Shown: one piece after another, positions 197-53,398 of the stretch
Position numbering within the stretch: position 1 is the first letter of the stretch
Layout of the letters: each line of letters starts with the position of its first letter
NCBI RefSeq assembly: GCF_029255185.1
Contig: NZ_JAPUVO010000105.1
Coordinates: 1-53,398, forward strand
Length of the DNA stretch: 53,398 bases
Direction of reading: 5' to 3'
From: Propionivibrio sp.
GTDB lineage: Bacteria; Pseudomonadota; Gammaproteobacteria; Burkholderiales; Rhodocyclaceae
Notes under the pieces: model-generated
Told to the model about the DNA's origin: nothing
What the model saw: only the letters and a program-made list of their open reading frames with translations
Databases searched by the model: none
Made by a program: the position numbers and the translations under genes

Positions 197-1168
197 ATGC
201 TCGTTTATCGCGGTTTTTTGCAAGCAGCCTCTGGCCCCACTGTGCTGACCATCGGCAATTTCGATGGCGTCCATCTTGGCCACCGTTCGTTGCTCGCCCG
301 CTTGAAAGCCATAGCAGCAAGAGACCATCTGCTGCCAGCGGTGCTCACCTTTGAACCACATCCACGTGAATTTTTTGCCCCAGAATCGGCGCCGGCCCGC
401 CTGTCCACCCTGCGCGAGAAGCTTGAACTGATTGCCGACGAAGGCGTTGCGCTGACCTGGGTGAGCCACTTCAACGCCCGCCTTGCCGCGCTTTCGGCAG
501 AAAAATTCGTCGAGCATATCCTGATCGACACACTATGCGTCAAGCATCTGATCATCGGCGATGATTTTCGCTTCGGCGCCGGCCGCCGGGGCAATTTTGC
601 ACTGCTGCGCGAGGCCGGAGAACGTCACGGCTTTCAGGTTGAAGCGATGGATTGCGTGACCCTTGATGGCGAACGCGCGTCAAGTTCAGCGGTCCGTGCC
701 GCGCTCGCCGAGGGGAACATGGAGCATGCCGCACGTCTGCTCGGCCGCCCCTACGCGATAGACGGCCGCGTGGTCCATGGCGACAAGATTGGCCGACAGC
801 TCGGTTTCGCCACCGCCAATATCCGCATCAAGCACAACAAGCCGCCGCTCCTGGGAGTCTTTGCCGTCGAGGTCAAGGGGATCAAGGGGCCTGATGCCCC
901 ACCGCTCAAAGGGGTAGCCAATCTAGGCTTCCGCCCGAGCATCGACGAGACTCTGCAACCGCTGCTCGAAGTACATCTCTTCGACTTCGCCGGCGACCTC
1001 TACGGCACTCATCTGAACGTTCGTTTCCTGCACAAGCTGAGAAACGAAATGAAATTCCCCAACTTTGACGCGCTGAAGGCACAGATTGCGCTCGACGTAA
1101 GCAATGCAAAATCGTTTTTTACCGCAAAGACGCAAAGGCGCGAAGGTCGCAAAGAAAGTGCCGACTAG
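197..1168 (+). CDS. ribF: bifunctional riboflavin kinase / FAD synthetase RibF
   Basis: RibF phosphorylates riboflavin to FMN and adenylylates FMN to FAD in the cytoplasm. The N-terminal adenylyltransferase half shows TIGNFDGVHLGH at about residues 17-28. The C-terminal flavokinase half shows GRVVHGDKIGRQLGFATAN and later the GVANLGFRPS segment. The length of 323 residues is slightly above the usual ~310. The excess is explained by the last 15 residues (TAKTQRREGRKESAD), which are encoded by the left arm of an inverted-repeat element rather than by ancestral ribF. The ATG start at 197 places the nucleotide-binding motif where the family has it. No strong Shine-Dalgarno sequence is visible. 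It heads the familiar ribF-ileS-lspA-fkpB-ispH order, here interrupted by the element. Confidence 0.95.
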   Translation: MLVYRGFLQAASGPTVLTIGNFDGVHLGHRSLLARLKAIAARDHLLPAVLTFEPHPREFFAPESAPARLSTLREKLELIADEGVALTWVSHFNARLAALSAEKFVEHILIDTLCVKHLIIGDDFRFGAGRRGNFALLREAGERHGFQVEAMDCVTLDGERASSSAVRAALAEGNMEHAARLLGRPYAIDGRVVHGDKIGRQLGFATANIRIKHNKPPLLGVFAVEVKGIKGPDAPPLKGVANLGFRPSIDETLQPLLEVHLFDFAGDLYGTHLNVRFLHKLRNEMKFPNFDALKAQIALDVSNAKSFFTAKTQRREGRKESAD

Positions 1169-1585
1169 AAAATTTCTTGACGAACTCAGTCATAAGGTGA
1201 TCGGTGCCTGCATTGAGGTGCATCGATTGCTTGGCCCAGGACTACTTGAGTCTATTTATGCCGAGTGCCTTGCGGCTGAGTTATCCGAACTGGGAGTAAC
1301 AGTAAAAAAAGAAGTGGTCATACCTATTCAATACAAGGGCAAGGTGCTTTCAAAACCTTTGCGCCTTGATTTGCTGGTGGAAGACAGCATCATCGTTGAG
1401 GCAAAATCGGTCGCTCTCTTGATGCCGGTCCATTCAGCACAGCTTCTGACCTACCTGAAAATGACCGACCTCAAACTCGGCCTCTTACTTAATTTCAATG
1501 TTGTTGTTATGCGGGACGGCATCAAACGGATAGTCAATGGTTTGTAAACTTTGCGTCCTTTGCGTCTTTGCGCCTTTGCGGTGAA
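1121..1585 (+). mobile_element. inverted-repeat element carrying a GxxExxY gene
   Basis: The left arm (about 1121-1157) and right arm (about 1548-1585) are imperfect inverted copies of each other. Each holds four heptamers CGCAAAG (one is CGCGAAG) whose CGC cores are spaced 8, 8 and 9 bases apart. Between the arms lies one complete GxxExxY-family gene and nothing else. The unit sits precisely between ribF and ileS. The left arm supplies the end of ribF, and the right arm stops about 2 bases before the ileS ATG. No target-site duplication is obvious. Calling it mobile is inference from the compact IR-ORF-IR structure and from related palindromes elsewhere in the window. Confidence 0.6.
1158..1547 (+). 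CDS. GxxExxY family protein, predicted PD-(D/E)xK nuclease fold
   Basis: This is a small protein of about 129 residues matching the GxxExxY family by its signature GPGLLESIYAECL, followed by the RLDLLVEDSIIVEAK segment and VHSAQLLTYLK. The acidic residues plus ExK and the later Gln resemble a PD-(D/E)xK nuclease active site. The biochemical role of the family is not established to my knowledge. I prefer the GTG at 1158, just outside the left repeat arm and overlapping the ribF stop by 11 bases. An upstream in-frame ATG at 1104 would add 18 residues (FLPQRRKGAKVAKK-like) read from the repeat. The stop codon touches the right arm. Local GC is lower than in flanking ribF and ileS, which fits acquisition. 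It is co-directional with its neighbours and probably co-transcribed. Confidence 0.8.
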   Translation: MPTRKFLDELSHKVIGACIEVHRLLGPGLLESIYAECLAAELSELGVTVKKEVVIPIQYKGKVLSKPLRLDLLVEDSIIVEAKSVALLMPVHSAQLLTYLKMTDLKLGLLLNFNVVVMRDGIKRIVNGL

Positions 1586-1587
1586 AA

Positions 1588-4392
1588 ATGGCTGACTACA
1601 AAAACACACTTAATCTTACCGACACGCCTTTCCCGATGCGGGGTGATCTTGCCAGGCGCGAGCCGCAGTGGGTTGCTGCCTGGCAGGACAAAAAGCTTTA
1701 CGAGCAGATCCGTGAGGTCGCCAAAGGTCGGCCTCACTTCGTTCTGCATGATGGCCCGCCCTACGCCAACGGTGACATCCACATCGGCCACGCGGTCAAC
1801 AAGATTCTCAAGGACATCATCGTTCGCTCGAAGACGCTGGCCGGTTTCGATGCGCCTTACGTGCCGGGCTGGGATTGCCACGGCCTGCCGATCGAGCACC
1901 AGATCGAGAAACTGCACGGCAAGCATATCGCTGGCGACAAGGTGCGCGCGCTGTGCCGTGCCTTTGCTGGCGAGCAGGTCGAACGCCAGAAGAAAGACTT
2001 CATCCGTCTCGGCATTCTTGGCGAGTGGGACAACCCCTACCTGACGATGGCCTTCAAGAGCGAGGCCGACGAGATCCGCTCGCTCGGCAAAATCCTGGAG
2101 AAGGGCTATCTCTATCAGGGGCTCAAACCGGTGAACTGGTGCCTGGATTGCGGTTCGGCACTGGCTGAGGCCGAAGTCGAACACGAGGACAAGAATTCGC
2201 CGGCCATTGATGTCGCTTTCGAGGTCCATCCCAACCACGCTGAAAAACTGGCCAGGGCTTTCGCCCTGACGCACCTGCGCGGCCCGGCCTTTGCCGTGAT
2301 CTGGACAACCACCCCGTGGACCTTGCCGGCCAACGAAGCGGTGAGCATTCACCCGGAATTCGATTACGACCTGATCGACACGCCGAAGGGCGCGCTGATC
2401 CTGGTGCGCGAACTGGCCGCAGCCTGCCTTCAACGTTACGGATTTGACGCTGGCCAGAGCACGGTGATCGGCTCGGTCAAGGGCAAGGCGCTTGACCACG
2501 TGTTGCTCAAGCACCCCTTCCAGGAACGCGACGTGGCCATCATTTGCGGCACGCATGTAACCACCGAAGCCGGTACCGGCCTGGTGCATACGGCGCCGGC
2601 GCACGGCGCCGACGACTACCAGATTGGCAAGGTCTACGGCCTGCCGGTCAACAACCCGGTCGGCGACGACGGCAGGTTTCTCGCCAACACGCCACCACTC
2701 TCGGTCTCAACGCTGGCCGGCAAAACCGTCTGGGAAGCCAACCCGCTGGTCGTACAGGAGCTCGAAGCCCAGGGACGCCTGCTCAAGTCGGAGCGCATCA
2801 CGCACAGCTACCCGCACTGCTGGCGGCACAAGACACCGATCATTTTCCGCGCCACAACCCAGTGGTTTATCGGCATGGATCACAAAGACAACGAAAACGC
2901 CGCGACACTGCGCTGGATCGCCGAACGCGCGGTTGATGAGACGCAGTTCTTCCCGGCCTGGGGCCGCGCCCGGCTCGAAGCGATGATGAAAACCCGCCCC
3001 GACTGGTGCGTTTCGCGCCAGCGCAACTGGGGCGTGCCGATTCCTTTCTTCCTGCATAAAGAAACTGGTGCGCTGCACCCGCGCACCCCGCAATTGATTG
3101 AGGACGTGGCCTTGCGCGTCGAGCAGGCCGGCATCGAAGCCTGGTTCTCGCTCGACGCCAAGGAACTGTTGGGCGATGAGGCGGCGAACTACCGCAAGAT
3201 GAACGACACCCTCGATGTCTGGTTCGACTCCGGAGTGACCCATTCGAGCGTACTGCGCGCATCGCATCAGGCCCAACTCGCCTATCCCGCCGATCTCTAC
3301 CTCGAAGGCTCCGACCAGCATCGTGGCTGGTTCCAGAGTTCGCTCCTCACCGGCTGCGCGATCGACGGTCGCGCCCCATACAAGGCGCTGCTGACACACG
3401 GTTTCGTGGTCGACGGCAAAGGCCTGAAGATGTCCAAATCGAAGGGCAACGTCATCGCCCCGCAGAAGGTCTCCGATACCCTGGGCGCCGACATCCTGCG
3501 TCTGTGGACGGCGGCCACCGACTACTCGGGCGAGTTGACAATTTCCGACGAAATTCTCAAGCGCGTCGTCGAGTCTTACCGGCGCATGCGCAACACCCTG
3601 CGGTTTCTGCTCGCCAACACCGTCGATTTCGACCCGAGCAGGGATCTCCTGGCCCCCGGGCAGTGGCTCGAAATCGACCGCTATGCACTGGCCATGACGC
3701 GCCAGATGCAGGCGCAGTGTGAGGCCGACTATGACAACTACGAGTTCCATCGTGTCGTGCAAGCACTGCAAACCTTCTGCTCGGAAGACCTTGGCGGTTT
3801 CTACCTCGACATTCTCAAGGACCGCCTATACACCGCCGCAGCCAACTCGACAGCGCGCCGTTCGGCGCAAAGCGCGTTGTGGCACATCACCCGGACCTTC
3901 GTGAAACTGATGGCACCGATCCTCGCCTTTACCGCCGAAGAAGTCTGGCAAATCATCAACGGCAACGGTCAGTCAATCATGCTGCAAACCTGGCAACCGC
4001 TGCCCGCTCCCGCCGACGAAGTCATGCTGCTCGACAAGTGGGGCAAGATCCGTCTCTACCGCGCCGAAGTGACGCGCGCCCTTGAGGCACTGCGGATTGC
4101 CGGCAGCATCGGCTCGTCCTTGCAGGCGGCTGTCGTGATTCATGCCGATGGCGAAAAATACGACATCCTGGCCTCGCTCGGCGATGACCTACGCTTTGTC
4201 CTCATTTGCTCAAAGACCCGGCTCGTTCGCAGCGGCGAAGACAAGCTCGAGTGCACAGCGCTCGCCGATGCAAAATGCGAACGCTGCTGGCATGTTCGCG
4301 ACGACGTCGGCAGCGATCCCGGGCATCCGGAGATCTGCGGCCGTTGCCTGAGCAACCTGTACGGCGAAGGTGAAGCTCGTGCCTGCGCGTAA
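1588..4392 (+). CDS. ileS: isoleucyl-tRNA synthetase
   Basis: This class I synthetase charges tRNA-Ile and edits misactivated valine. At 934 residues it has the bacterial length. The HIGH signature is HIGH at residues 65-68, KMSKS is at about 614-618, and the editing-domain segment with [10 protein letters not shown] lies near residues 240-250. The C-terminal zinc finger has Cys pairs at 897/900 (CERC) and 917/920 (CGRC), typical of bacterial IleS. The ATG at 1588 starts only about 2 bases after the right arm of the upstream inverted-repeat element, so its ribosome-binding region is made of repeat sequence (GCGGTGAAAA) without a classic Shine-Dalgarno. The 3' end overlaps lspA by 23 bases. 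Confidence 0.98.
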
Positions 4393-18722: not shown

Positions 18723-18817
18723 TTCAACGCAGAGTACGCAGAGACGCAGAGAAAGAAGGAAAACAGGATTTTGATTCATCTCTGCGACCTCTGCGCCTCT
18801 GCGCGCTCTGCGTTGAA
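18723..18817. repeat. palindromic CGCAGAG repeat between pccB and pccA
   Basis: The left arm TTCAACGCAGAG... holds three CGCAGAG units (CGC cores 9 and 8 bases apart). The right arm, read on the opposite strand, holds four (spacing 9, 8, 9) and ends in the same TTCAACGC terminus. The spacer is about 22-25 bases, AT-rich, and contains TTTTGATTC. In the mcm-meaB-pccB-pccA transcript it would form a long hairpin just upstream of pccA. Confidence 0.85.
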
Positions 18818-29903: not shown

Positions 29904-30038
29904 GCTTTCAACGCAGAGGACGCAGAGACGCAAAGTTCGCAGAGAGAAACAAGAAAAAACGTAGTATCGTTTTCACATGCTTCGACAAATCGCTCTTCTC
30001 TGCGTCCTCTGCGTCTCTGCGCACTCTGCGTTGAAAGC
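29904..30038. repeat. palindromic CGCAGAG repeat between ruvC and ruvA
   Basis: The left arm from GCTTTCAACGCAGAG (29904) and right arm ending CTCTGCGTTGAAAGC (30038) each contain four heptamers with CGC cores at 9, 8 and 9 bases. One left-arm unit is CGCAAAG, the variant found in the GxxExxY-carrying element. A spacer of about 45 bases separates the arms. The whole sits between ruvC and ruvA, 37 bases before the ruvA ATG. Confidence 0.85.
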
Positions 30039-42332: not shown

Positions 42333-42427
42333 GCTTTCAACGCAGAGTACGCAGAGGCGCAGAGATCGCAGAGAAAAACGATATTGATTCTCTCTCTGCG
42401 CCTCTGCGTACTCTGCGTTGAAAGAGC
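42333..42427. repeat. palindromic CGCAGAG repeat between livK and livH
   Basis: The left arm GCTTTCAACGCAGAGTACGCAGAG... carries four heptamers (CGC cores 9, 8, 9 apart). The right arm carries three and ends ACTCTGCGTTGAAAG. The spacer is about 12-15 bases and contains ATATTGATTC, similar to the spacer of the pccB/pccA copy. It ends 8 bases from the livK stop. Confidence 0.85.
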
Positions 42428-53253: not shown

Positions 53254-53333
53254 TCACCTTTGCGGTGGATTCAACCTTAAAAACTCAGTTGTTCACCGCA
53301 AAGGCGCGAAGGACGCAGAGTGCCGCAAAGAAA
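53254..53333. repeat. CGCAAAG-type repeat downstream of apbC
   Basis: A full arm TTCACCGCAAAGGCGCG... (from about 53293) contains four heptamers (CGCAAAG, CGCGAAG, CGCAGAG, CGCAAAG). About 25 bases upstream is CACCTTTGCGGTG (53256-53268), which pairs with the arm's terminus over 12 of 13 bases. The orientation is end-to-start compared with the complete palindromes. The copy mixes both heptamer types and may also end the apbC transcript as a hairpin. Confidence 0.7.
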
Positions 53334-53341
53334 TCAACAGC

Positions 53342-53398
53342 TTAGATCTTGTTGTTCTTGTCCATGGCGCTCACCCATATGGTGAATGGGGGAAACCA
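53342..53398 (-). CDS. possible 3' end of a membrane-protein gene, truncated by the window edge
   Basis: The minus strand is open from the edge to a TAA at 53344-53342, encoding WFPPFTIWVSAMDKNNKI as a final hydrophobic stretch followed by a polar tail, as in an inner-membrane protein C-terminus. It is only 18 codons, so this is tentative. A plus-strand start (ATGGCGCTCACC at 53364) is an equally simple alternative. Confidence 0.25.
   Translation of the reverse strand, partial: WFPPFTIWVSAMDKNNKI

Follow-up and report, generated by a model that had tools for sequence, protein, structure and literature searches.

Why are ribF and ileS, which are normally adjacent, separated in one Propionivibrio genome by a gene of the GxxExxY family, and why does that gene lie between two inverted arrays of short repeats? 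Taken together, gene and repeats have the appearance of a single, very small mobile element that recurs in distant bacteria, often at the same junctions between housekeeping genes. We analysed a stretch of 53,398 nucleotides from Propionivibrio sp. (the window; contig NZ_JAPUVO010000105.1), and the locus comprises these features:

197..1168, forward strand: ribF (C-terminus ...FFTAKTQRREGRKESAD); it extends into the left arm, and its 3' end with the stop codon is within the arm or just beyond it
1115..1154, forward strand: left arm, with four CGCAAAG-type heptamers at 1123, 1131, 1139 and 1148 and TTTTTTAC on its outer side
1158..1547, forward strand: GxxExxY gene, a predicted PD-(D/E)XK nuclease of the Cas4/RecB type with intact catalytic residues
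1549..1588, reverse strand: right arm, with four inverted heptamers starting at 1549, 1558, 1566 and 1574
1588..4392, forward strand: ileS, the downstream neighbour of the unit, from the list of open reading frames and profile matches

The two arms are 40 nucleotides each and 88% complementary, and their heptamers have the same 8-8-9 spacing (the third one on the left, at 1139, is CGCGAAG). They enclose one intact gene as their sole cargo. In profile searches, this gene matched TIGR04256 (GxxExxY) with 144 bits and PF13366 (PDDEXK_3) with 141.4 bits, where the curated cut-offs are 35 and 22 bits. The list of open reading frames begins the gene at an ATG at 1104, within ribF; the GTG at 1158, three bases past the left arm, is more likely to be the start. 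The stop codon (TAA, 1545–1547) is followed by a single base and then by the right arm, which at its outer end overlaps the ileS start codon by one base. An earlier note on this DNA had described four heptamers per arm, at 8-8-9 spacing, bracketing a complete GxxExxY gene, and the coordinates and the profile matches agree with that description. We also noticed that ribF runs through the left arm (1115–1168), and that a repeat-encoded tail (TAKTQRREGRKESAD) replaces the short native C-terminus of its relatives. (At the empty ribF-ileS sites of relatives, ribF closes with a short tail and a stop codon.)

What kind of protein does the element encode? Across 62 GxxExxY proteins, G26, G28, E31, Y34, D71, E81, K83, Q95, N112, and R124 are invariant, and Y99 is conserved in at least 90%. 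The motif of RecB/Cas4-type PD-(D/E)XK nucleases consists of E, D, ExK, and QxxxY residues, and its counterparts E31, D71, E81, K83, and Q95 are all among the invariant positions. An AlphaFold2 model of the window protein (pLDDT 96.7, pTM 0.90) had two Foldseek matches with E under 1e-3. The best hit was SSO0001 (E = 2e-4), which we take to be a Cas4, followed by lambda exonuclease and LHK-Exo (E about 1e-2); with TM-scores of 0.4–0.5, the match in fold is a distant one. From the conserved residues and the modelled structure, we predict that GxxExxY is a RecB/Cas4-type PD-(D/E)XK nuclease whose catalytic residues are intact.

GxxExxY thus resembles Cas4 and RecB proteins, including solo-Cas4 and the Cas4 of mobile elements, in its E-D-ExK-QxxxY residues and its predicted fold. 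Unlike Cas4 proper, it has no conserved Fe-S cluster cysteines (no column that is invariant or nearly so in the 62 proteins is a cysteine). Its named neighbours are housekeeping genes, and its profile hits to Cas4 are weak and come from a second GxxExxY gene of the home genome only (E = 0.003–0.018 in PADLOC). PADLOC had no match for the window protein itself, and with just those weak matches for the second gene, we rejected a label of anti-phage defence. We also rejected a phage origin, as tblastn found no match in 50,697 phage records; seven plasmid records match GxxExxY. A search by sequence for a solved structure of a relative gave no significant match. According to PMC5704561, Cas4 genes occur in mobile elements too. 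PMC8934634 describes a case in which its pipeline called a GxxExxY domain and a different tool called cas4 at that place, and PMC12085832 lists a GxxExxY protein in an algal virus genome, so the family is also found outside bacteria. Where they name GxxExxY, the latter two papers assign it no function.

Do GxxExxY genes elsewhere also have arms? We gathered 99 GxxExxY loci, including the two of the home genome, from lists that favour close or high-scoring relatives, and we scored the 94 loci with full 200-bp flanks. The flank-to-flank inverted-repeat score was at least 14 for 49 of these 94 loci versus 1 of 224 neighbouring ORFs from the same loci (that lone control, near L069, scored 28). Scores of at least 15 were seen for both home loci, 20 of 25 loci from the same family, 14 of 23 others outside Flavobacteriales (a group that spans several phyla and includes other Pseudomonadota), and 13 of 44 Flavobacteriales, which amounts to 36 of the 50 loci outside Flavobacteriales. 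Two or more chained heptamers on each side were found at 2/2, 20/25, 13/23, and 1/44 loci in these same groups, that is, at 35/50 loci outside Flavobacteriales versus 0/230 control ORFs. (Five of the 230 control ORFs have a chain of three heptamers on one side alone, and 5 of the 94 loci have chains in the wrong orientation on both sides.) The neighbour-ORF controls rule out chance or an annotation artefact. The family is widespread: in a separate draw of 398 genomes from the phylum, 65 had a match to GxxExxY. This draw gave 30 loci, and 22 of the 29 that could be scored reached at least 12, a level reached by 6 of 224 of the earlier neighbour-ORF controls. Their arms are again heptameric, along with CACAGAT/CGCAGAT relatives. 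Flanking arms at other GxxExxY genes, which the earlier note had proposed as a check, are therefore strongly enriched, and the main exception is Flavobacteriales, whose genes mostly have no heptamer arms.

Two further observations concern the diversity of the family. Four loci (L051, L052, L053, and L059) form a separate GxxExxY clade with other repeat units nearby (CGCAGAT-like and ACAGGAT-like), which suggests that protein and repeat type co-vary. And in one family of the phylum sample (f39), very many genomes have GxxExxY, some with as many as five matches.

The two arms of a gene evolve as a pair. At least two heptamers are present on each side at 43 of 72 loci, with eight subtypes among them, and the left and right subtypes are identical at 39 of these 43 loci versus 7.6 expected (none of 100,000 shuffles was as high; these shuffles treat related loci as more independent than they are). 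Within the trpE-trpG junction alone, the subtypes agree at 12 of 13 loci versus 3.0 expected. Arm subtype also tracks the gene tree, with 19 changes versus a mean of 26.9 in shuffled data (the lowest of 300 shuffles had 22).

That the arms of one gene stay matched might be explained at the level of RNA: the arms would form hairpins through which expression of gene and operon is stabilised or tuned, and they would have been inherited vertically with the gene since ancient times. The GxxExxY transcript does fold far better than shuffled sequences (z = -6.9), with the arms paired. However, this explanation is hard to reconcile with dispersed cargo-less copies that have duplications, with the empty site in the sister species, and with repeated entries into the same junctions (all described below), and we consider it very unlikely.

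Is the unit really an insertion? Across 28 genomes of the genus, the ribF-ileS junction could be read in 25: 18 are empty, with spacers of 16–24 bp, one has 84 unrelated bases, and 6 are occupied. A tree built from the flanking proteins has 27 rows, of which 8 are occupied (the junction with 84 bases was scored as empty), and on it occupied and empty junctions are interleaved, with 6 changes, at least 4 of which are forced by starred branches. L140, which is the sister of the window on this tree (support 100/99), is empty at ribF-ileS. The earlier note took the unit to be an insertion between two normally adjacent genes and looked to close relatives for empty sites; these empty junctions, the sister's among them, bear out both points.

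In all six of the occupied junctions in the genus, the heptamers begin 2–3 bases past the same ribF Phe codon. The gene is complete in four of them, while L136 and L139 keep just a 3' remnant. In L136 (from G208), GxxExxY was replaced internally, with the 3' remnant and the arms retained; the insert has a short ORF that, by eye, resembles a HigA-type antitoxin. L138 has a cargo-less palindrome at the ribF-ileS place, with no ribF hit. No clean duplication is readable at the occupied ribF-ileS sites because the native spacer is missing there, and by eye we saw no duplications at either the ribF-ileS or the trpE-trpG junctions. Monophyly of the ribF-ileS genes within the genus was not rejected (p = 0.12), and a single clade (90/94) unites all six of the genes at this junction that have a full reading frame. 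Recurrent insertion is therefore not established at the window's own site.

Other junctions were occupied repeatedly. Within the family, 34 genes lie at four junctions: 6 at ribF-ileS, 15 at trpE-trpG, 10 at trpD-trpC, and 3 at rarA-serS (7 of the 34 were assigned by one flank only). Further sites are prfB-lysS, murC-ddlB, pilB-pilC, and (from annotation) fabD-fabG; at unannotated loci, gene names are our reading of the translated neighbours. Among 21 trpE-trpG loci (L178–L198), 6 are occupied, 7 are empty (12–30 bp), 2 have other sequence, 5 have no upstream trpE hit, and 1 is at a contig edge. A single origin was rejected both at trpE-trpG (AU test, p = 5e-7) and at trpD-trpC (p = 2e-4), with p-values that are somewhat too small because a quick first tree had already been inspected when flanking genes were used to define the sites. 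Also, one well-supported clade of genes (99/98) spans trpE-trpG and trpD-trpC. Related elements therefore either came into these junctions more than once or passed from one junction to another. We also noticed that in five trpE-trpG elements (L033, L034, L049, L165, and L169), the right terminus ends in GGTGAAAGG-like sequence and the trpG start follows shortly after, which means that the element may supply the ribosome-binding site of trpG.

On the gene tree, genes from one site tend to group together (7 changes versus 16 in shuffled data), and this is what might be expected from homing. Homing endonuclease genes of the PD-(D/E)XK type exist, and they are small stand-alone nuclease genes at conserved sites; GxxExxY is likewise a small, stand-alone gene for a predicted nuclease, and the conserved sites that it occupies have empty alleles among relatives. 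If GxxExxY were a homing gene, the nuclease would cut the empty junction of a relative, the gene would be copied by homologous recombination via its flanks, and each clade would be specialised for a single junction. The interleaving of occupied and empty ribF-ileS alleles among close relatives, and the common starting point of the heptamers at 6/6 occupied junctions, would also fit. But GxxExxY lies between genes and within its own inverted arms, and it has dispersed cargo-less copies, unlike these homing genes. Palindromes at many unrelated sites, some of them with target duplications, would need transposition in addition, and the single clade at both trpE-trpG and trpD-trpC also requires real transposition. 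We think that homing is quite unlikely to be the explanation.

The arms also recur without the gene. Within the window, there are four such copies:

18728..18812, no strand: cargo-less palindrome of the CGCAGAG type, a complete arm pair
29912..30030, no strand: cargo-less palindrome of the CGCAGAG type, a complete arm pair
42341..42417, no strand: cargo-less palindrome of the CGCAGAG type, a complete arm pair
53275..53398, forward strand: left part of a CGCAAAG-type copy, similar to a class of 150 bp and cut off by the end of the window

The three complete pairs and the partial copy confirm the earlier note's observation of arms without cargo elsewhere in the window. The excess of heptamers in the window alone is modest (20 matches with up to 3 mismatches, where 100 shuffles averaged 10.4 and never exceeded 19). 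In the home genome (3.26 Mb in 141 contigs), CGCAAAGNCGCAAAG occurs 87+82 times with up to 2 mismatches, versus 36+25 for the reversed pattern. This genome has one further GxxExxY gene, at the trpE-trpG junction, and inverted arms of the CGCAGAG subtype lie on either side of it. (This second gene, at 1441–1930 of L002, has an apparent frame-shift near its 3' end, that is, near the C-terminus; its arms are still well matched.) Both arm subtypes recur as cargo-less copies: the stretches of the home genome that we examined contain 33 inverted pairs, of which 19 are CGCAAAG and 14 are CGCAGAG.

Some of these copies have target duplications. With the ends of each copy fixed at CCTTAAAAACTCAGTTGTTCAC and CCTAGAAACCTCAC, 8 of the 19 CGCAAAG-class copies in the home genome are flanked by perfect 5-bp duplications of the form TTNAN, whereas 6.1% of mismatched pairs show them (p = 1e-5 by permutation). 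In a cruder test, the CGCAAAG class reached p = 0.03 and the CGCAGAG class had no significant duplications (p = 0.61); in 38 palindrome copies from G106 that we read by eye, there was no clear duplication. Target-site duplication at fixed ends, which is a mark of MITEs, was found on just the one cargo-less class. The 38 G106 palindromes (L239–L257 and L259–L277) are closely similar and nearly all CGCAGAG, and many of their ends start with TGAA, which gives ATGA/TCAT at the junction.

Duplications of 5 bp are normally the products of transposases, and those on the cargo-less copies could equally be attributed to an unseen transposase. This is the basis of the strongest rival to our proposal: the arms and the palindromes would be MITE-like and moved in trans by a transposase that makes 5-bp duplications, and GxxExxY would be a stowaway that serves otherwise, such as in defence, repair, or the protection of repeats. 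Besides the 8 of 19 copies with duplications at fixed ends, the ends themselves (CCTTAAAAAC / CCTAGAAACC) and the AT-rich duplications resemble the IS1380 family, whose members have comparable ends and 5-bp AT-rich duplications. The copies also resemble the MITEs of IS elements in being short and in having inverted ends. However, no parent IS was found, and the gene-bearing relative encodes a predicted nuclease, not a DDE transposase. In particular, PF13701 (IS1380-type) has no match in the home genome, although assemblies can miss IS copies; PF13701 is above its cut-off in 6 of the 28 genomes of the genus. Furthermore, the long end sequence occurs 10 times in the home genome, and eight of these are complete arm pairs, too short to hold a transposase. 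(Of the other two, one is cut by the end of the window and one is a remnant.)

The distribution of the repeats also bears on this. We considered the strict triple-heptamer places listed for three genomes (100 of the 120 in G106, 24 of the 31 in G069, and 26 of the 26 in G010). These form 68 inverted pairs, with 14 places unpaired. Among the listed pairs, 66 of 68 are shorter than 200 bp; the other two are wide (464 and 471 bp; from G106 and G069), and both enclose GxxExxY genes. The G010 gene and the second G069 gene are absent among the strict inverted pairs listed.

Across the 199 genomes of the family, 36 have GxxExxY and 163 do not. At least 10 triple-heptamer hits were found in 14 of the 36 gene-bearing genomes versus 2 of the 163 gene-less genomes (Fisher p = 3e-10), so 14 of the 16 repeat-rich genomes carry the gene. 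(We preferred a threshold of 10 because the gene's own arms can contribute a few hits.) If the hits must also be three times the reversed-pattern control, then the counts are 11/36 versus 0/163 (by hand); the two gene-less genomes that are repeat-rich, G088 with 36 hits and G117 with 16, have high controls as well (17 and 7). The association holds within genera: when we shuffled within the 19 mixed genera (78 genomes), 11 of 13 repeat-rich genomes were carriers versus 5.5 expected (p = 7e-4), and lower thresholds gave p = 3e-3 (at least 6 hits) and p = 3e-5 (at least 4 hits). There are exceptions. Sixteen of the 36 gene-bearing genomes have fewer than 4 triple-heptamer hits; in G040, the gene's arms are CACCAAG and the repeats among the matches listed are CACAGAG; and in G065, the arms are CACGAAG and the few repeats listed are mixed, mainly CGCAAAG and CGCAGAG.

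The link between gene and repeats across genomes, and the wide pairs that hold GxxExxY alone, support the earlier note's view of an autonomous element with non-autonomous derivatives. They count against a stowaway: GxxExxY is the only cargo of the wide pairs (2/2 among the places listed), and repeats build up mainly where the gene is present, within genera too. We regard the stowaway explanation as unlikely, albeit one to be taken seriously.

One of the closest known systems is REP/REPIN-RAYT. PMC2817692 describes RAYT genes flanked by two inverted REPs, and from that account, the two systems share a gene between two inverted repeats, many cargo-less inverted doublets, and an association of gene with repeat. 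Given this similar architecture of inverted pairs and one gene flanked by two repeats, the palindromes might be REPINs that are moved by a RAYT-type Y1 transposase, with GxxExxY between two of them by accident. But there is no match to Y1_Tnp in 5 of the 16 repeat-rich genomes, including G106 (120 hits), and none of 24 Y1_Tnp loci is bracketed by arms, as a RAYT would be by its repeats (at 3 of the 24, a run of heptamers occurs at another place in the locus). A RAYT/Y1 transposase as the mover is largely refuted by these results, and we give this explanation almost no credence. Also, RAYTs are Y1 enzymes related to IS200/IS605, whereas GxxExxY is a predicted PD-(D/E)XK nuclease, and here the arms consist of tandem heptamers and one class has 5-bp duplications.

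We propose instead that the arms and GxxExxY form a mobile element, and that the nuclease acts on its own arms and spreads palindromic derivatives; we put the chance that this is correct at about even. The mobile unit would be the arms plus the gene, or about 460 bp. The arms, which can fold as a hairpin or a cruciform, would be the recognition sites of the nuclease. It would process the folded arms, and perhaps the target as well, which would lead to the copying of the element and of gene-less palindromes to new sites; the palindromic derivatives would be moved in trans. Gene-bearing copies would persist in the junctions of co-directional housekeeping genes, where the arms may supply stop codons and a Shine-Dalgarno-like sequence (identified by eye), so that the operon need not be broken. 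We infer that this enzyme recognises the arms, works on their hairpin form, and drives the spread of the repeats, much as RAYT transposases are thought to spread REPs.

More tentatively, a lone Cas4-like nuclease might move both itself and a swarm of palindromes, without a transposase, an integrase, or an HUH enzyme, by recognising hairpins of the end heptamers. These would then be the smallest self-mobile elements of their kind, present in many bacterial phyla and leaving housekeeping operons unbroken. We lean somewhat against this fuller version. To our knowledge, no single PD-(D/E)XK protein transposes DNA alone.

We found no description of this kind of element in the open-licence literature. 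In titles and the starts of abstracts, nothing links GxxExxY to inverted repeats, and searches for the repeat letters and for the arm-encoded peptide returned only papers that look unrelated by title. The recurrent link to inverted repeats gives the GxxExxY family a role that can be tested, and it would account for one class of the dispersed palindromes that several phyla have. The system would be a nuclease-only counterpart to REP/RAYT. If it is true that the nuclease alone moves DNA, then this would be a new chemistry of transposition.
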